From NCBI GenBank assembly GCA_025618425.1, contig CM046850.1:30164544-30228543 (forward strand): a DNA stretch of 64,000 bases, given 5' to 3'. The notes below the pieces were generated by a model that did no database searches, was not told the DNA's origin, and was given only the letters and a program-made list of their open reading frames with translations. Source of the stretch: Heliocidaris tuberculata. Taxonomy: Eukaryota; Echinodermata; Echinoidea; Camarodonta; Echinometridae. Positions within the stretch are counted from its first letter, which is position 1, and each line of letters starts with the position of its first letter. Of the stretch, positions 1,381 to 38,389 are shown one piece after another. The translations under genes were made by a program, and so were the position numbers.

Positions 1381-11987
<10,607 letters not shown>

Positions 11988-25681: not shown

Positions 25682-28600
25682 CTGAGTAAAATAAATCAAG
25701 AGAAATTACACTGTGAAATAGAATACAACATTGCTGTTTATACACATACTGCATGATAAGATATGCCCTAACAAAAGATCTACTCATAGTTACTTCCCTA
25801 TACTTCACTGTAAGCTTTGTTATCAAAGGCTCCCATTTAATTATTCAGACTGGTTGATAAACTTATAAAGAGTCGCACGTTCAATGTAATTCGGCTTGAT
25901 TACAGCTAAAAGTAAGTTTGATATTGATTTATCCCATCATAGGAACAGACTATTGAAATTGTGCAATTGAATGGAGGGCTTGTGATCAATTTGGATTAAT
26001 TACAACTCTTTGGTATACATGTACAAGGTGGTTATTATACTGGATGGTAAATATCCAAATTAGGCTACAGTTTGACGGGAATAGACTGATTGATTTGTGG
26101 GCATTGCTGTTAGTGGGTTTTAAACATGTAAGCATATTTTGTTTTTCAATCTATTTGGACAATCAGAAATAGAAGAATTGAGACAAAACAGATAGAGGTG
26201 ACAGATAGTTGTAGAGAATGTGCACATACCTGAGTGAGCTTGGGTGAATAGGTGAACTAAGGAGCTGCCTCTTAGAAGGAGTACATTCACCATCACTATC
26301 ATCTGTATATCAAAAGATAAACATATCAAGGTCATTCATGTCAAAATCATTTATATCATCTGCATTCAAATACATATCAAAAGATAAACATATCAAGGTC
26401 ATTCATGTCAAAATCATTCATATCATCTGCATTCAAATACATATCAAAAGATAAATATATCAAGGTCATTCATATCATCTGTATTCAAATATATATCAAA
26501 AGATAAACATATGAAGGTCATTCATGTCAAAATCATTCATATCATCTGTATTCAAATATATATCAAAAGATAAACATATGAAGGTCATTCATGTCAAAAT
26601 CATTCATATCATCTGTATTCAAATATATATCGAAAGATAAACATATCAAGGTCATTCATGTCAAAATCGTTCATATCAAGCTCATTGACACCAAGGCCAT
26701 TTAAAACAAGGTCATTTAGAAAAAGGTCAATGTGCACATCAGTTCCTATATAAGCTGCTATTTACATGAGGGTTATCTTTGTGAATTTTGCAAATTTTAC
26801 CAATTTTTGTACAGGAGTGAATTCAACAAGATAAGAAAATGAGACAGCAATGCACCAATAACATGTATTATACATAAAGTACATGTAAATGTAGTCTGGG
26901 TTAATTGCTGCCATTTAGCTTGCAACAATATCAGTGTCAAAACTGTGTATGAATGAATGGTATGAGGGGAACATAGCTCAATTTAACAGTCACCTCAAAG
27001 CTTCCTCAATGACCTGGGTGTTATAAGGTAAAAATGTGTAAAGCATATTATGCTTATTTTACTTAATTTTGCTTTAAGCCTGCAGTAATTTTTTTACAAC
27101 AAATAACCGGCTATGTCTGAATGAGCGTTAATTGATTTACAGATTTAAAACAGTACTTACATTTCCGTTTAAGAGAGGATGCAAGTGAGCTCGGCCTGAG
27201 AACAGGACTCATGCTACGTTTGGTGAAGGTGGACCTAGTAGGGCTTGGATTGGGACTAGGTGACATGCAGGGACTCCTCATTGAAATCTGAGGTGAAAAA
27301 CATTGCTGTAAGATAGAGAGAAGAGGAAAGTGTTGAATAAAAAAGTGGTCATAAATTACTGCACTTAATGAATAGTACTGCTAGATAAAAATGGAGAAAT
27401 CATGATCACATAACGTAAACAGCTCCTTACCTGAATAGCAACATACTGACAATCTTTAACCATTATTAAAGCCCAACCAGTTTACTAGTATTACAGGGGA
27501 AACTTGATATAACGAGGCCTTCAGGACCGAAGGGTTTCCTTGTTATAAGCCGTTATCTCATTATATCATTATCATATCGTTACATACATAAACAAGATGA
27601 ATGTGACTGCGTCTCCTATATGTCTCCACCTAAATTCAGTTGATGGCTCAAACTGTTCTTAAAATATTGTGATAACCAGAATAAAAAGCCTCTAATTACA
27701 TGTTAATTGACCTCTTTGACATTTGACCTTACACCTTATAACCCAAAAGTCTGATCACTTTATCTCCTCCTAGTCATGAATACAAAATAGTTGAGATATG
27801 GTGATGACAAAGGTAATAAAACATTAATTTCACACACACCTATATAATGACCTCTGTGACCTGTCACCTTTGACCTAAGTGAATAAAAATCTAATCAGTT
27901 CGTCTCACTATGGTGATGCATACTAGTTCCAAGTTTGAACCTCAAATGGTTCTTGAGTTATTGCGATAACGAGGCTAACACCTGCAATTTCAGAAATTGA
28001 CCTCTGTGACCTTTGACCTACATAACGCAAAATCTAATCAGATCGTTTTCCTATGGTGATACAAACTAGCACCAAGTTTGAAGTTAATACTCATATGGTT
28101 CTTGAGTTATCGCTAGAACGAGAAAACGAGACAGACTGACGGACAGATGGACAAATGGACAACCCAAAAACATAATGTCTCTGGCACGACCTTCGGTGGG
28201 CGTAAAAATTCACATATGGGACTAGATTCTACATGTACACTAATAATGAATGTACCTTGTTCTTCTGCTGCCACTTATATACTCATTTGAAAGCTATGAA
28301 TGCATTAATAATATGTTAAATCTAGATGCGAATTCACTAACAAAATATCAGATGTCAGAAAATGCGTGAAAAGCACTATTTTCAGACACTAAGTTACCGA
28401 CTAAGACTTAAGTGCATCACACTTTCGCATTGAATATGGGGACTGCCCCTGTACCATCAGCATAGCGCATACTCCTGGTATGAAAAAAAGTCTCATTCAT
28501 CCTTCGGGGGCTGATCTCCCTTAAGCTGTGATATAAATGAAAAGATGTTCCCTGAGCTGTGATACAGATAAAAAGACACTCTCTGCGCTGTGTGTGCGAT

Positions 28601-31600
28601 ACAAATAAAAAGATGCACCCCGCTTCGCATTGCAATCGACTACGGCCACCCAAATGCCTCTAATATATCTTTACTATCATGTGGGTGCAGATTCTTCAGC
28701 TGAAGAATTTTTGTCCATTTGAGGCACAGTGTAATTTGCTTGTTCGTTATAACGGGAATGATTACCAATCTTTCTTTTTTTTGTTTTAGAAGCACAAGTT
28801 TTAGCTCGTTATAGCTGATATCTCGTTATAGCCGACCTCGCTATAAAAGTCTGTGCCACCACAGAATTACAAGCAAGTATGTATAGCCGTTACCTTGTTA
28901 TAGCAGACCTCGTTATGTCAAGTTTCCCCCTGTACTATCATTGCCTCATTTTTCAACATCACAATCATTACCACTACCACAATCACTATCATCATCATCA
29001 TTACCATCATCACCATCATCACCATCATCATCATCGTCATCATCAATACCATCACACCTACCATCACCACTACCATCATCACCATCATCAATACCATCAC
29101 AACTACCATCACCACTATCATCACAACTACCATCACCACCATCATCATCAATACCATCACAACTACCATCACCACTACCATCACAACTACCATCACCATC
29201 ATCACCACCATCATCATCAATACCATCACAACTACCATCACCACTACCATCACAAATACTATCACCATCATCACCACCATCATCACCACCATCATCACCA
29301 CCATCATCATCAATACCATCACAACTACCATCACCACTACCATCACCATCATCACCACCATCATCAATACCATCACAACTACCATCACCACTACCATCAC
29401 CATCATCACCACCATCATCATCAATACCATCACAACTACCATCACAACTACCATCACCATCATCACCACCACCATCATCAATACCATCACAACTACCATC
29501 ACCACTACCATCACCACTACCATCACAACTACCATCACCATCATCACCACCATCATCATCAATACCATCACACCTACCATCACAACTACCATCACAACTA
29601 CCATCACCACTACCATCACCATCATCACCACCATCATCATCAATACCATCACAACTACCATCACCACTACCATCACAACTACCATCACCATCATCACCAC
29701 CATCATCATCAATACCATCACAACTACCATCACCACTACCATCACCATCATCACCACCACCATCATCAATACCATCACAACTACCATCACCACTACCATC
29801 ACAACTACCATCACCATCATCACCACCATCATCATCAATACCATCACAACTACCATCACCAGTACCATCACAAATACTATCACCATCATCACCACCATCA
29901 TCACCACCATCATCATCAATACCATCACAACTACATGTACCATCACCACTACCATTACCACCATCGTCACCACTACCATCACCACCACCATCACCACTAT
30001 CATCCAATCTAATCCAATCCAATCCAATCAGGGTACATGTATTCATAAAGCGCCAATATCTAGTTGCCTAATCAAAGGCGCTGTTGAGACTGAAAAACTA
30101 ACAAATGTCTGTTCATGATTCTAACTGGGAAAGATGAGAATATATGACTAGGTACAAGCAGTCTGAAATAGGTATGTTTTGAGTTGAGTTAATTACCACT
30201 TTCATCACCACCATCATCACCACTATCACCACTATCATCACTGCCATCACCATTGTCATCATGATCATCATCATGACATCCACTTACCTTGCCAGGTCTT
30301 GTCGGTGAAGGAGATGATGCTACGAAGGGTAGCGTGGGTGGTATAATACTTAATGGCTCTGATATACATGACCTTGTTTCTGATCGAGGCTCTGAACGTA
30401 ATGCTTTGATGCTTTCATCCTGTAAACAAAGAACAATAGCATGAAAGTTATTTTTCACTTCCTTACGCATTGTGTGTAGTTTTGATGTCCTAAGCACTAA
30501 TATTTCATGATGCTTCTTCTTCTCTTATGCTTTATGCATTAACATGTGCGTTGCATCATAAGTCACTTACATCGGACTTGTTGGAATCACCAATTAAAGT
30601 TTGTAAAATCTCACTGCAGCGAAATTTGATGGCCCTCAAGGAAATTACTCCAGCTTGCCTTTGAGTCTCATACAGTGTTCAAGAGAGGAAAATTTATGAT
30701 GAGTGGATCGGAACGCATGTTATGTTAGACCTGTCAATCATAAAAGTGGAGGCCACACTCTCTGTTTTCAGGTGAATACCCAAATGGTGGCAAATTCCCC
30801 ATGATAACCCTAGCTCATGAGTCTTGAAGTCATGTTAACATCCCCTCATACAATCTAACACATCAAGACCTTCATCTAATATATATTAAAGTGCAATTCA
30901 TTTTCAAAATCTTTACTATCCATTAGATTTTGCCAAAAAATTTGCACTGATTCTTTTGTTACTTTTACAGCCCATAAAATCAATTTTTATTTCCCTCTGT
31001 TATTTTCTTCAAAGTGACATTGAATGGAGAAGGTTTCATGGTTACTGGTATAATGAGTGGTTAATTCACTGACTTTAAATATGAGGTTGAGGGTTCAAAA
31101 CCCAGCCTGGCACTAATGTCCTTTGGCAAGACATTAATCTACAAAACTCTCCATCCAGGTATAAATGGGTACCTGAAACACTAGAGCACTACATATTAGG
31201 TCTCTCTACTATTAATGTTGAAGTGTCAGAAGCGTCACAGCATGACAGACATGAGTGCTATGCAAGCTGCTACAAATATTATTATCATAGTTTATTATAT
31301 GTACAACAATGAAGACTAATAACTGGCCTAAACTGTATTAGATTCAAGGGTGATCCTACATTTACTATGGGTCATATTTCTTTAGAGTTACTAGGTTAGG
31401 ACTTGGGTTGGCATTGAGTTCAAGTTTCGGTTTGGGCTTGGGGTCACCTGGCTTGGGGTCAGCCTGCTTGAGGTTAGGTCTAGTATTGTGTCCAGGATTG
31501 AATTAGAGCAGTATAAAAAATTAGCAACAGATATCAATTACAATTATAAGGCAGAAGCTTACCAGGTGTAGTTCATCCCAGGATTGACTCATCCTAAATG

Positions 31601-35400: not shown

Positions 35401-35572
35401 ATGGTGCTTACGTCATATTTGGTCCATTGAACATGGGTGCACTGTTGGACCTACGTAGCGTGCCCTCTTCCCTCACGCTGATAGGACCAGGGGTGGCAGG
35501 TCGACCCACATCCATGCGGTTCTCTTCAGGAGAGTCTGAGCCGCTATTTGCTTCGCTGTGAGCGGCAGCCAT
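25498..35572 (-). CDS. PABIR: PABIR/FAM122 family PP2A-B55 inhibitor, 8 exons, complete
   Basis: Spliced on the - strand: 35572-35412, 34826-34742, 33315-33224, 31614-31563, 30419-30288, 27305-27161, 26302-26230, 25681-25498. All junctions are GT-AG and in phase; 307 codons (human paralogs ~195-290). PABIR proteins bind the PP2A scaffold and B55 subunit and inhibit B55-dependent dephosphorylation, mainly in the nucleus, under CHK1/14-3-3 control. Seen: RRSNSAP (residues 40-46, a 14-3-3 mode-1-like site with Ser44), the B55-binding helix RVSQIKQEESLDIRSKEAE (92-110), SQSWDE, SPSPTRPGK, QCFSP, SPSPNPSPTRS, and a basic LKRKY nuclear-signal-like motif (~219-223). The long Ser/Thr-rich C-terminus is not obviously shared with vertebrates. 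The start ATG is preceded in frame by a stop with no other ATG between. I cannot say which vertebrate paralog it equals. Confidence 0.93.
26230..26302 (-). CDS. PABIR: PABIR exon 7 (73 nt)
   Basis: Acceptor gatatacag, donor CTCAG/gtatgt. Encodes (Y)DSDGECTPSKRQLLSSP to HPSSL. Phase fits exon 6 and exon 8. Its acceptor is the first of a tandem series of similar acceptors to the right. Confidence 0.85.
26303..26700. repeat. ~60-80-bp minisatellite starting at the PABIR exon 7 acceptor
   Basis: About six units of ATATCAAAAGATAAACATAT, CAAGGTCATTCATGTCAAAA, TCATTCATATCATCTGTATT. In the gene direction each unit end reads ...aatacag/ATGAT, copying the real acceptor gatatacag/ATGAT of exon 7. Confidence 0.85.
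27161..27305 (-). CDS. PABIR: PABIR exon 6: QCFSP and nuclear signal
   Basis: Acceptor tatcttacag, donor AAAT/gtaagt. Encodes QCFSPQISMRSPCMSPSPNP to SLASSLKRK. Several Ser-Pro sites and LKRK match the vertebrate QCFSP...PLKRK block. Confidence 0.94.
27494..28932. mobile_element. 1.44-kb TIR element, pogo/Tigger-like, with nested repeat
   Basis: Ends CAGGGGAAACTTGATATAAC and, inverted, CAGGGGGAAACTTGACATAA, followed by CGAGG; flanked by TA on both sides (27492-27493, 28933-28934). The CGTTATA word recurs in the right part. Such ends with TA duplication suit pogo/Tigger-type Tc1-mariner elements. No transposase seen. Copy B of the TGACCT-rich repeat sits inside. The whole is in PABIR intron 6-5 sequence, between exons 6 and 5. 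Confidence 0.75.
27588..28210. mobile_element. Dispersed repeat rich in TGACCT half-sites, copy B
   Basis: Homologous to 23722-24470. Contains TGACCTTTGACCT at 28007-28019 and further half-sites near 27711, 27850-27890. Ends CGACCTTCGGTGGGCGTAAA. Confidence 0.75.
28945..30005. repeat. 1.06-kb (CAT/CAC)-derived satellite
   Basis: Almost purely CAT, CAC, AAT, ACT triplets arranged in higher-order units of ATACCATCACAACTACCATC and CACCACTACCATCACCATCA type. It gives long open frames of His/Tyr, Ser/Pro or Asp/Gly in all phases, which are artefacts. It lies in the PABIR intron between exons 6 and 5, beside the TIR element. Confidence 0.95.
30288..30419 (-). CDS. PABIR: PABIR exon 5
   Basis: Acceptor tgtttacag, donor AAG/gtaagt; exactly 44 codons from DESIKALRSEPRSETR to ASSPSPTRPGK. 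The SPSPTR-GK end is family-specific. Confidence 0.92.
31036..31275 (+). mobile_element. tRNA-derived SINE, plus strand
   Basis: A box GGTATAATGAGTGGTTAATT, B box GAGGGTTCAAAACCC, then GGCACTAATGTCCTTTGGCA and AATGGGTACCTGAAACAC. Same family as the minus copy at 8935-9165. Tail runs into GAGTGCTATGCAAGC and ATT repeats. Confidence 0.75.
31563..31614 (-). CDS. PABIR: PABIR exon 4 (52 nt)
   Basis: Acceptor ttttcag, donor CTG/gtaagc. Completes the split Arg and encodes EVRSAFRMSQSWDELHL, matching the EVQxAMxxSxSWEE block of vertebrate FAM122. Confidence 0.92.
32324..32425. repeat. A tract and (AAAT)n microsatellite
   Basis: Poly-A followed by about 18 AAAT units, in the PABIR intron between exons 4 and 3. 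Confidence 0.95.
33224..33315 (-). CDS. PABIR: PABIR exon 3: B55-binding helix
   Basis: Acceptor tttgtaaag, donor GAGAG/gtagga. Encodes MSVPVRIPSRVSQIKQEESL to AEHE. The R-x-x-Q-I-K-Q-E-E segment is the most conserved part of FAM122 proteins and is the helix that docks on B55 and reaches the phosphatase site. Confidence 0.94.
33934..34420. mobile_element. Dispersed ~480-bp repeat, copy A
   Basis: Aligns along its length with 56345-56820: CCCTCAAAAACTT, AGATTTCTTTGATTTTA, GCTGTGAAGTT, GAGAGGT, the CGTTA/AGCATTCC-CACAGATAT part and TGAATGGAATR. No TIR or coding region found. In the PABIR intron between exons 3 and 2. Confidence 0.65.
34510..34705. mobile_element. Small foldback element of 15-bp ACTACCCCC repeats
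   Basis: Left arm has GGACAGCTACCCCCC, AACTACCCACTAGG and relatives; right arm has CAGTTGTCCTGGGGGTAATT and GGGGTAATTGTCCTAAG, in inverse orientation, around a C tract (34623-34638). Same family as 50949-51264 and 52309-52642. Diverged; no clear target duplication. Confidence 0.65.
34742..34826 (-). CDS. PABIR: PABIR exon 2
   Basis: Acceptor ctatgacag, donor CCA/gtgagt. Encodes DDSPVFQPIREKPRVRRMSA to NGAKP; D-S-P-V-F-Q plus a basic RRMS patch matches the family. Confidence 0.9.
35412..35572 (-). CDS. PABIR: PABIR exon 1: start codon and 14-3-3-like site
   Basis: ATG at 35572-35570. Encodes MAAAHSEANSGSDSPEENRM through LRRSNSAPMFNGPNM; donor ATGAC/gtaagc. RRSNSAP is the hallmark of the family: in human FAM122A the second serine is a CHK1 target that recruits 14-3-3. 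An in-frame TAG lies about 60 bases upstream of the ATG. Confidence 0.93.
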
Positions 35573-36012
35573 CTCTTCATCTGGCCATCCAGCTATCAGA
35601 CCAAGGTGTACTCCCTCTGACCAATCCAGCTCAAAAAATGGATGCTAACTCCACCCTTCTCAATAAAACAAGATGCTCTCTAGTCCAGTCCACACATCAA
35701 TTTGAAATTGTCAAATTTATCCACAGAATAGCAAAGAAAAAGCCAGCATAAGTTTAGGAATGCATGCCCTAAGTACACCTACTTGCATTAAATTTACTGC
35801 TGTCTAATTACCTAGTAATGCTTCAAAACACATCTGGGCAGGAAATTTCTATGAACATCTCAACTGGTTTCAATAAGAGTAAACAGGATCCAAAAGAGAT
35901 GTTAAAATCCTTTGTTGAGTTGCTTTTATCTTGATGTGTTTAGCAGGCTCTCTGGTATATAATTCAGAGTCTTTCAGACTGACGAACATTCCAAATATCA
36001 GTTGAAGCTCTA

Positions 36013-36640: not shown

Positions 36641-36747
36641 TACATTATACACTCTGAATGTTTAGTTTTTCAGGGTTACACCATGTAATTCTTTCAAGGA
36701 ATAAGAGCCCTGAAAAGGGCTGGTGAGCTCCGCTAAGAGCTCTGTGG

Positions 36748-36791
36748 TTCTCGACGTTTCGATCAGTATGCTCTGATCGTCATCAGGAGAA
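36748..36791 (-). ncRNA. Hammerhead ribozyme motif, unit 1
   Basis: Read on the - strand: stem I strand TTCTC, core CTGATGA, an extra C, stem II GATCAG/CTGATC with loop AGCATA, then GAAA, CGTC and GAGAA. GAGAA pairs with TTCTC (stem I), GTC is the expected cleavage triplet, and stem III is only the self-complementary ACGT, which suits a dimeric hammerhead. An extra base after the core A is known in some natural hammerheads. Activity not tested. Confidence 0.75.
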
Positions 36792-37163
36792 TGACTAGAA
36801 TACTGCCCAGTGGAGGCTATTTATTGCCTACGGAGGGATCCAATTCACAGCCTGATTGGCGCCAATCGGAAATGCCCGCGAATTCTATTCACGGCTGCAT
36901 TCTCATTCTGGTCACTGGTGGCGCTATAATTCCTCTAAACAGAGAAAGCACCGGACGGTGCCATTGTTTTCTCTGAATAAAGAACAAGGGCCAGATTTTC
37001 CGCTGAATGATTGCTCCCCTTAGAGCCGGTATTTAGTGAAGTATCAGCGACACTTTCATGGTGGAGATACTGAATGTTTAGTTTTTCAGGGTTACACCAT
37101 GTAATTCTTTCAAGGAATAAGAGCCCTGAAAAGGGCTGGTGAGCTCCGCTAAGAGCTCTGTGG

Positions 37164-37207
37164 TTCTCGACGTTTCGATCAGTATGCTCTGATCGTCATC
37201 AGGAGAA
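37164..37207 (-). ncRNA. Hammerhead ribozyme motif, unit 2
   Basis: Same 44-nt motif as in unit 1, 416 bp further on, with core, stems I and II and GTC site unchanged. Confidence 0.75.
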
Positions 37208-37579
37208 TGACTAGAATACTGCCCAGTGGAGGCTATTTATTGCCTACGGAGGGATCCAATTCACAGCCTGATTGGCGCCAATCGGAAATGCCCGCGAATT
37301 CTATTCACGGCTGCATTCTCATTCTGGTCACTGGTGGCGCTATAATTCCTCTAAACAGAGAAAGCACCGGACGGTGCCATTGTTTTCTCTGAATAAAGAA
37401 CAAGGGCCAGATTTTCCGCTGAATGATTGCTCCCCTTAGAGCCGGTATTTAGTGAAGTATCAGCGACACTTTCATGGTGGAGATACTGAATGTTTAGTTT
37501 TTCAGGGTTACACCATGTAATTCTTTCAAGGAATAAGAGCCCTGAAAAGGGCTGGTGAGCTCCGCTAAGAGCTCTGTGG

Positions 37580-37623
37580 TTCTCGACGTTTCGATCAGTA
37601 TGCTCTGATCGTCATCAGGAGAA
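37580..37623 (-). ncRNA. Hammerhead ribozyme motif, unit 3
   Basis: Same 44-nt motif, 416 bp from unit 2, unchanged. Confidence 0.75.
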
Positions 37624-37995
37624 TGACTAGAATACTGCCCAGTGGAGGCTATTTATTGCCTACGGAGGGATCCAATTCACAGCCTGATTGGCGCCAATCG
37701 GAAATGCCCGCGAATTCTATTCACGGCTGCATTCTCATTCTGGTCACTGGTGGCGCTATAATTCCTCTAAACAGAGAAAGCACCGGACGGTGCCATTGTT
37801 TTCTCTGAATAAAGAACAAGGGCCAGATTTTCCGCTGAATGATTGCTCCCCTTAGAGCCGGTATTTAGTGAAGTATCAGCGACACTTTCATGGTGGAGAT
37901 ACTGAATGTTTAGTTTTTCAGGGTTACACCATGTAATTCTTTCAAGGAATAAGAGCCCTGAAAAGGGCTGGTGAGCTCCGCTAAGAGCTCTGTGG

Positions 37996-38039
37996 TTCTC
38001 GACGTTTCGATCAGTATGCTCTGATCGTCATCAGGAGAA
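37996..38039 (-). ncRNA. Hammerhead ribozyme motif, partial unit 4
   Basis: Same motif in the truncated fourth direct unit, 20 bases before the switch to the inverted copy. Confidence 0.75.
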
Positions 38040-38201
38040 TGACTAGAATACTGCCCAGTGGAATTATAGCGCCACCAGTGACCAGAATGAGAATGCAGCC
38101 GTGAATAGAATTCGCGGGCATTTCCGATTGGCGCCAATCAGGCTGTGAATTGGATCCCTCCGTAGGCAATAAATAGCCTCCACTGGGCAGTATTCTAGTC
38201 A

Positions 38202-38245
38202 TTCTCCTGATGACGATCAGAGCATACTGATCGAAACGTCGAGAA
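38202..38245 (+). ncRNA. Hammerhead ribozyme motif, inverted copy
   Basis: On the + strand: TTCTC 38202-38206, CTGATGA 38207-38213, stem II to 38232, GAAA 38233-38236, CGTC to 38240, GAGAA 38241-38245. Two small hairpins follow (GAGCTC/GAGCTC and AGCCCT/AGGGCT), also present in the direct units. Confidence 0.75.
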
Positions 38246-38389
38246 CCACAGAGCTCTTAGCGGAGCTCACCAGCCCTTTTCAGGGCTCTTATTCCTTGAA
38301 AGAATTACATGGTGTAACCCTGAAAAACTAAACATTCAGTATCTCCACCATGAAAGTGTCGCTGATACTTCACTAAATTATACACTCTG

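Follow-up and report, generated by a model that had tools for sequence, protein, structure and literature searches.

Animal retrozymes and Penelope-like elements (PLEs) share type I hammerheads and occur together, for which reason PLEs have been put forward as the likely mobilisers of retrozymes (PMC7229834; PMC7761336); retrozyme repeats are described as having no conserved motif that would reveal the mobilising element (PMC7761336). Hammerheads acting as dimers are known from amphibian retrozymes (PMC7229834). In rotifer PLEs, the inverted pLTRs are mostly head-to-head with a 31-bp tail on one of them, and self-priming was inferred from palindromes at the inverted junctions (PMC3846280). The protein of an Anolis PLE cuts and extends both target strands, and its reverse transcriptase (RT) uses two internal start sites that match the 30-40 bp tail (PMC11167929). 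Frangieh et al. report that the start site is alike on both strands in vitro, that hammerhead cleavage is dispensable in vitro, unprocessed RNA being inserted, and that the hammerhead was cleaved only when the protein was present; the steps of PLE integration that follow the first copying are described there as not yet validated (PMC11167929).

The element analysed here is a 1725-bp insertion at 36654-38378 of a 64,000-nucleotide stretch of Heliocidaris tuberculata DNA (the window). A COX1 copy elsewhere in the genome (C11:430956-432296) has AAA codons where COX1 carries asparagine (FPRMNNMSFWL), consistent with the echinoderm mitochondrial code and with a sea urchin as the likely host. A direct repeat bounding the element had been claimed in a preliminary description of this DNA, and we find it as a 13-bp target-site duplication, ATTATACACTCTG, at 36644-36656 on the left and 38377-38389 on the right; the last three bases of the left copy, CTG, can also be read as the end of the element (microhomology). 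The left arm (36654-38062, sense strand minus) was resolved by repeat mapping into 3.39 tandem units of 416 nt, and Tandem Repeats Finder, run on the window, returned a 416-bp period, 3.4 copies and a 100% match over the same interval. The right arm (38060-38378, plus strand) is an inverted 0.77 unit of 319 nt, or 322 nt if counted from 38057. The arms meet head to head at 38060-38062, where a GGA microhomology of 3 nt is common to both and unit positions 360 and 241 are joined (in the numbering of the 421-nt unit described below). The outer 3´ end of the left arm falls at unit position 99 of 416 (104 of 421), the short site, and that of the right arm at position 138 of 416 (143 of 421), the long site. 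The 39-nt tail between the two sites is thus found at the outer end of the right arm (38340-38378, plus strand), and the left arm ends before it. No differences were detected among the left-arm units (0 of 1728 compared sites) or between the left and right arms (0 of 1127). The unit has a GC content of 46.6%, and the longest stop-to-stop frame within the element is 86 aa, repeated per unit. An ORF with RT and GIY-YIG endonuclease domains was looked for inside the element and is not present; given this and the absence of any frame above 86 aa, the element is non-autonomous. The tandem and inverted array in the window, with its hammerhead motifs and target duplication, is confirmed as a real observation.

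The surroundings of the element are briefly as follows. Candidate PABIR/FAM122 exons were picked out by eye at 35408-35644 and 27111-27380 (both minus), and the element is located 5´ of the first of these. The assignment of this neighbour, made in the preliminary description, stands as a by-eye likeness to RRSNSAPM, which we take to be a mark of PABIR/FAM122, and Pfam gave no family for it. Exons of a protein kinase that resembles RYK lie at 9382-9660 and 10656-11039 (plus; PF07714, E 8.6e-9 and 1.8e-10). A 1-kb array of the CATCACCAC type at 28993-30004 has long open frames on both strands and is most likely a simple, non-coding repeat.

Five copies of a 44-nt hammerhead motif were located in the element by motif matching, at 36748-36791, 37164-37207, 37580-37623 and 37996-38039 on the minus strand and at 38202-38245 on the plus strand, with cleavage predicted after GTC. 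They are identical letter for letter, follow the 416-bp unit and occupy both strands, all as previously proposed; four are on the minus and one is on the plus strand. On the sense strand the motif reads, 5´ to 3´, TTCTC, CTGATGA, an extra C, GATCAG-AGCATA-CTGATC, GAA, ACGT, C and GAGAA, giving a stem I of 5 bp and a stem II of 6 bp; its spacer is 19 nt, and a pattern with a 20-nt spacer matched nothing. The letters CTGATGA, GAA and GTC form the hammerhead core and are intact in all five window copies. The hammerhead layout first put forward needs correction at one point, as it had omitted the extra C that separates CTGATGA from stem II. An additional nucleotide in this position also occurs in natural hammerheads. 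Because ACGT is self-complementary and has no loop, two motifs must pair with each other to build stem III, and the earlier view that such a stem calls for a dimer agrees with the motif layout. A dimer-type hammerhead ribozyme is accordingly predicted in every unit. Small dimer-cleaving hammerheads are reportedly found in PLEs, going by the title of Lunse et al. 2017. A 34-nt piece of the motif had no exact match among viral contigs.

An alternative is that the motif no longer cuts itself and has been retained only as an RT-binding hairpin. The check with hammerhead covariance models suggested in the preliminary description came out negative, as the Rfam hammerhead models had no match in the window either at the gathering threshold or at E<=5, and the extra core nucleotide likewise fits a lost ribozyme. 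(A weak Rfam match to the Histone3 hairpin, E 0.82 at five places, was taken as chance.) In RNA folding, the minimum-energy structure pairs GAUG with CGUC and so breaks the hammerhead core, and for the 44-nt motif the double-hammerhead fold reached -21.3 kcal/mol as compared to -34.7 kcal/mol for the best dimer fold. Since the competing fold is preferred, any activity would need a dimer, tertiary contacts or protein help, and cleavage confined to conditions with protein, as for the Anolis PLE hammerhead (PMC11167929), can be read in the same direction. Against loss of self-cleavage, the core is preserved in every window copy, and a second hammerhead family in this genome keeps core and pairing despite a different stem II, as judged by eye. 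We therefore regard loss of the ribozyme as unlikely.

Allowing up to 3 mismatches, the motif was matched 859 times in the 897-Mb genome (69 contigs), 429 times on the plus and 430 times on the minus strand. The reversed-pattern control gave 0 matches in the same genome, so this abundance is not due to chance. Among the matches listed, 100 places on contigs C1-C3 were clustered by eye into about 54 loci. The 40 loci on C1 and C2 were read and hold 41 insertions, which together with the one in the window make 42 mapped insertions, all chosen for carrying the motif; segments no more than 1500 bp apart were merged as one insertion, with the exception of L017, counted as two. A duplication of at least 8 bp flanks 30 of the 42 (24 of 26 two-armed insertions, or composites, and 6 of 16 single-armed ones), compared to 13 of 1722 mismatched flank pairs used as a control. 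The duplications of composites are 10-16 bp long in 24 of 26; L034 and L035 have none. No 8-bp duplication was seen at 10 of the 16 single-armed insertions, although one of these, L026, has a 12-bp duplication when some additional bases are permitted. The genome survey for copies and flanking duplications that had been proposed thus returned both, and with tandem units, a motif in every unit, dispersed copies and duplications, the claim of a retrozyme-like element is well founded.

Full units (n=36, from the mapped loci and the window) measured 416 nt in 18 cases (4 loci), 421 nt in 14 (6 loci) and 418-419 nt in four. The 416-nt unit lacks CTACA beside the short end site relative to the 421-nt unit, and the marker of this subfamily has 72 matches in the genome; the 416-nt unit originally reported is present, but it is incomplete as a description of the family, being the subfamily without these 5 nt. 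When the best 40 of 1588 candidates from a search with the end module were scored, 40 full-length matches were obtained, all at 100%. We also observed a cluster of at least 16 perfect module copies over 42 kb at C18:30031520-30073443, possibly a local hot spot or a satellite-like expansion. Two composites, L025 and L028 (C1:60.48 and 65.91 Mb), are one insertion that was duplicated. The same composite spacing recurs on one contig at distances of 0.5-5.4 Mb for L025/L028, C20:821991/1966781, C19:12212312/12755950 and C2:9255778/9988632, and either segmental duplication or haplotypes that the assembly failed to collapse would account for it.

Both orientations are present in 26 of the 42 mapped insertions, and in all 26 the minus arm precedes the plus arm, 5´ to 5´, with the 3´ ends outward. 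An inverted partial copy, which the preliminary description had called unusual, is therefore the prevailing form, and its value lies in the combination of a short and a long 3´ end in the same insertion. This pairing was found in 25 of 26 composites: in the 421 numbering, short ends lie mostly 100-105 (range 87-110) nt and long ends 139-146 nt after the predicted cleavage site, with the classes set at 85-112 and 132-148 by limits chosen after the ends were known. The exception is L034, which has one end at 63, and as L025 and L028 copy one insertion, the independent short/long pairs number 24. The outer end of the 16 single-armed insertions is short in 11 and long in five. Twin priming of the L1 type, in which LINE machinery lets the second target strand prime inside the RNA and a 5´ inversion results, gives an inversion with microhomology at the 5´ junction and an inverted outer end at variable internal places. 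The 5´-junction inversion and microhomology seen here are similar, and a LINE-1-like RT fragment lies inside one related locus, but in 25 of 26 composites the arms terminate outwardly at two constant positions separated by 39 nt, a different one for each arm, inversions are the majority, and no poly(A) is seen at the insertion ends inspected. These differences make LINE twin priming very unlikely.

An arm overlap of 0-5 nt was measured at the junctions of 20 of 26 composites (1-5 nt in 17); the others have a 15-nt overlap (L041), a gap of 1-3 nt (four) or one of 60 nt (L019). Most junctions join distant unit positions, such as 360/241 in the window and 171/20, 278/101 and 405/76 elsewhere, and six of the 26 (L014, L015, L021, L023, L047 and L048) are near-symmetric about unit position 380. 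These six would fit the formation of the mirror image by self-priming, or hairpin fold-back, of a single cDNA, a process inferred for rotifer PLEs (PMC3846280). Fold-back should, however, copy equal ends from the template arm, yet the ends differ in 25 of 26 composites, and the joining of distant unit positions at most junctions also speaks against it; we find it hardly probable.

Five composites (L019, L035, L038, L045 and L046) contain inserts that do not belong to the element. Three of these inserts, at L038:3430-4672, L045:3058-4391 and L035:3059-3800, are 0.7-1.3 kb long and located at unit position ~369-419, and L038 and L045 retain the outer duplication despite the insert. Such inserts suggest template switching by whichever RT acts. 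A 27-aa frame, MAEKDSTKKVTKKKPATHPPAAEMITS, was noted inside composites at L046:2825-2905 (minus) and in part at L019:3860-3930. We take it to resemble the N-terminus of histone H1, a reading for which Pfam (with a 37-aa piece) and PDB searches gave no match, and it was probably captured by template switching onto an mRNA. Amplification at the DNA level, as a satellite spread by unequal exchange and inverted by recombination, could produce identical tandem units and a cluster such as that on C18, but dispersed copies, duplications of 10-16 bp, fixed 3´ ends and non-element inserts inside insertions render it extremely improbable. The two-armed form is most likely the common product of a two-strand, two-start insertion bearing the signature of Penelope elements.

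The sequences at the insertion sites were tallied for 23 composites with the short side set left (L028, L034 and L035 were left out). An A was found at flank position -2 in 21 of 23, a strong positional bias, and at the first duplicated base in 17, and duplicated base five is a T in 18; to the right of the duplication, T is present at the first base in 14 and at the second in 16. The positional bias of A at -2 and T at the fifth base indicates that the insertion complex appears to be oriented on its target. The duplications of the 23 composites are 75% AT and their flanks 71%, a mild enrichment given that the window itself is 59-70% AT per 4-kb block.

Comparison of arms was carried out for 18 composites, dropping L028, arms shorter than 100 nt or below 93% identity, and overlaps of fewer than 60 sites. 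Within an insertion, the two opposite arms were found to differ at 22 of 4463 sites (0.49%), compared to 1175 of 66175 (1.78%) for arms taken from separate insertions; in a permutation test, 0 of 5000 trials were as low as the opposite-arm difference. Among all unit pairs, differences were counted at 70 of 27753 sites within arms, 98 of 28485 between opposite arms and 1137 of 39215 between loci, the last count using one unit per locus and including old copies. The arms of L030, 6.36 and 4.78 units long, show 0 differences in 12734 compared sites, and those of L040 (3.35 and 4.52 units) show none; other insertions differ by up to about 5% (L046, 44 of 901). The low opposite-arm difference favours one RNA per insertion. 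This template was probably a single RNA, often circular.

The 5´ ends of the arms bear on the form of this RNA. Of arms up to one unit long, 17 of 45 have their 5´ end at 378-392, a short way upstream of the motif, compared to 0 of 22 longer arms (Fisher p 5.8e-4, a generous value because each arm of an insertion, and each member of the L025/L028 duplicate, entered the count on its own). A TATA-like sequence, ATAAATAG, starts at unit position 350, ~30 nt upstream of this cluster of 5´ ends in the arms of other copies, and TCATTC has its A at 382; in the window the TATA-like sequence is located at 36817-36824 (minus), with repeats at 37233-37240 and 37649-37656 (minus). Metazoan retrozymes are said to seem promoterless (PMC7761336). 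From the position of the box and the cluster, we infer a transcription start near 378-392 driven by a putative TATA-like promoter, in which case linear transcripts would have given rise to the short insertions, and RNA lacking this end to the long arrays. The same bilateral insertion might also proceed throughout from linear multimers or from two RNAs of one source locus. The 17 short arms that end ~30 nt below the TATA-like box fit linear RNA, as does the insertion of unprocessed RNA by the Anolis PLE in vitro (PMC11167929), but no arm longer than one unit ends there, and both L030 arms are identical over 11 units, with which a uniform linear multimer is nevertheless compatible. We consider the linear or two-RNA form of bilateral insertion a serious minority possibility. 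A circle would account for repeated passage over the template, although a uniform linear multimer fits too.

Evidence for the candidate machinery was obtained from the PLEs of the same genome. At least 109 GIY-YIG matches were found with 150 of 384 candidates scored, and among the scored matches, examined by eye, opposite-strand pairs less than 6 kb apart were divergent in 10 of 10 cases; of the pairs 6-10 kb apart, one was divergent and one convergent. Outer flanks were read for two of the 10 close pairs, and both (2/2) combine a short with a long outer end 44-45 nt apart, at positions 881/926 in one pair and 926/882 in the other on the PLE repeat in L049; the duplication is unreadable at both because of surrounding TA repeats. 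A comparison of the retrozyme unit with the terminal regions of three PLE repeats, L049-L051 (the first two almost the same in sequence), returned nothing beyond a match of 10 nt, in L051 (E 4.6), and no autonomous PLE sharing the retrozyme end module was found among these three. The interval between two identical module copies on C3, 5.6 kb apart, had been considered as a place for an autonomous PLE; the 1 kb read there (L060, C3:18730100-18731100) holds a retrozyme piece followed instead by a LINE-1-like RT fragment (RVT_1 E 5e-25; LINE-1 ORF2p E 3.4e-22). The second hammerhead family, with a stem II that differs by eye, comprises about 36 of 90 pattern matches by eye (reversed control, 8). 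Its insertions end 49/89 and 85/40 nt after cleavage and have 9- and 17-bp duplications at two of three loci, L053 being the exception. By eye, an extra nucleotide between CTGANGA and stem II is also seen in the hammerhead-like motifs carried by L049-L051 and in both hammerhead families, and it may be general in the PLE-type hammerheads of this genome.

Taken together, we think it quite probable that the element is a non-autonomous retrozyme inserted by PLE RT/endonuclease machinery, with one RNA primed from both strands of a staggered cut. Transcription would begin at the TATA-like promoter just upstream of the ribozyme; multimers would be cleaved by hammerheads paired through the ACGU stem III, and a host ligase would circularise the products. 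The PLE RT/endonuclease, probably as a dimer, would then bind the RNA in the module formed by nt 1-144 downstream of the cleavage site and cleave the target with a stagger, leaving two 3´ overhangs that would prime at different places, one at the short and one at the long site. Both enzymes could copy their way around this one RNA, in many cases repeatedly if it is a circle, and the two cDNA 3´ ends would be joined, usually by a microhomology of a few bases, and filled in. The expected outcome is a mirror-image array with a flanking duplication. A more specific version, that each insertion is the footprint of one PLE RT dimer on one RNA circle, with protomers at fixed sites 39 nt apart, priming by one strand each of an oriented staggered cut and several rounds of copying, is offered tentatively and with slightly less than even confidence. 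Running counter to the PLE reading, the pairing is strict here and the start sites of the Anolis Poseidon element PAc are alike by strand, with hammerhead cleavage dispensable in vitro. Also against it are the 16 single-armed insertions, the composites and single arms that lack a duplication, the convergent GIY-YIG pair at 6-10 kb, the lack of a common end module in the three PLE terminal regions compared and the LINE-1-like fragment at L060.

PLEs as candidate mobilisers of retrozymes are already in print; the paired ends are new evidence. The short/long pairing, the oriented target and the common template link the question of what mobilises retrozymes with that of how PLEs integrate, and the linked problems yield sharp predictions for experiments on a single purified PLE protein together with a 144-nt RNA. 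The paired ends also argue against a self-priming origin of the inverted repeats of PLEs. If the version with one RT dimer on one RNA circle is correct, animal retrozymes would accompany PLEs as non-autonomous partners with a circular RNA, and the course of PLE integration could be read from their arrays.

No description of head-to-head two-armed retrozymes or of paired short and long ends was found in the open-licence literature consulted. Plant LTR retrozymes, as characterised in PMC7229834, are non-coding and carry a hammerhead in each repeat, as here, and have RNA circles as intermediates; they differ in having a type III hammerhead, LTR, PBS and PPT, a 4-bp duplication and Gypsy machinery, whereas the present element has a type I layout and a 13-bp duplication. 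The metazoan non-LTR retrozymes (Cervera and de la Pena 2020, PMC7229834) are closer. They are described as arrays of 150-450 bp repeats that contain type I hammerheads, with GC below 50%, no LTR, PBS or PPT and many dispersed copies, all as here, and as having target duplications of more than 4 bp, compared to at least 8 bp at 30 of 42 insertions in our set. In contrast to them, the hammerhead here is like the minimal PLE type in lacking a closed stem III, and it has an extra core nucleotide. The likeness to PLEs extends to the architecture: rotifer Penelope pLTRs (PMC3846280) and Anolis PAc (PMC11167929) occur as head-to-head inverted copies, with a tail of 30-40 nt on one copy (39 nt here) and duplications of 8-10 bp (PMC3846280, PMC11167929), and PAc carries a hammerhead as do the retrozyme units (PMC11167929). 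Unlike PLEs, the retrozyme has no ORF and no sequence match to the resident PLE repeats compared, and it combines a strict short/long pairing with an oriented target motif, whereas the tail of PLEs is called optional (PMC3846280, PMC11167929).
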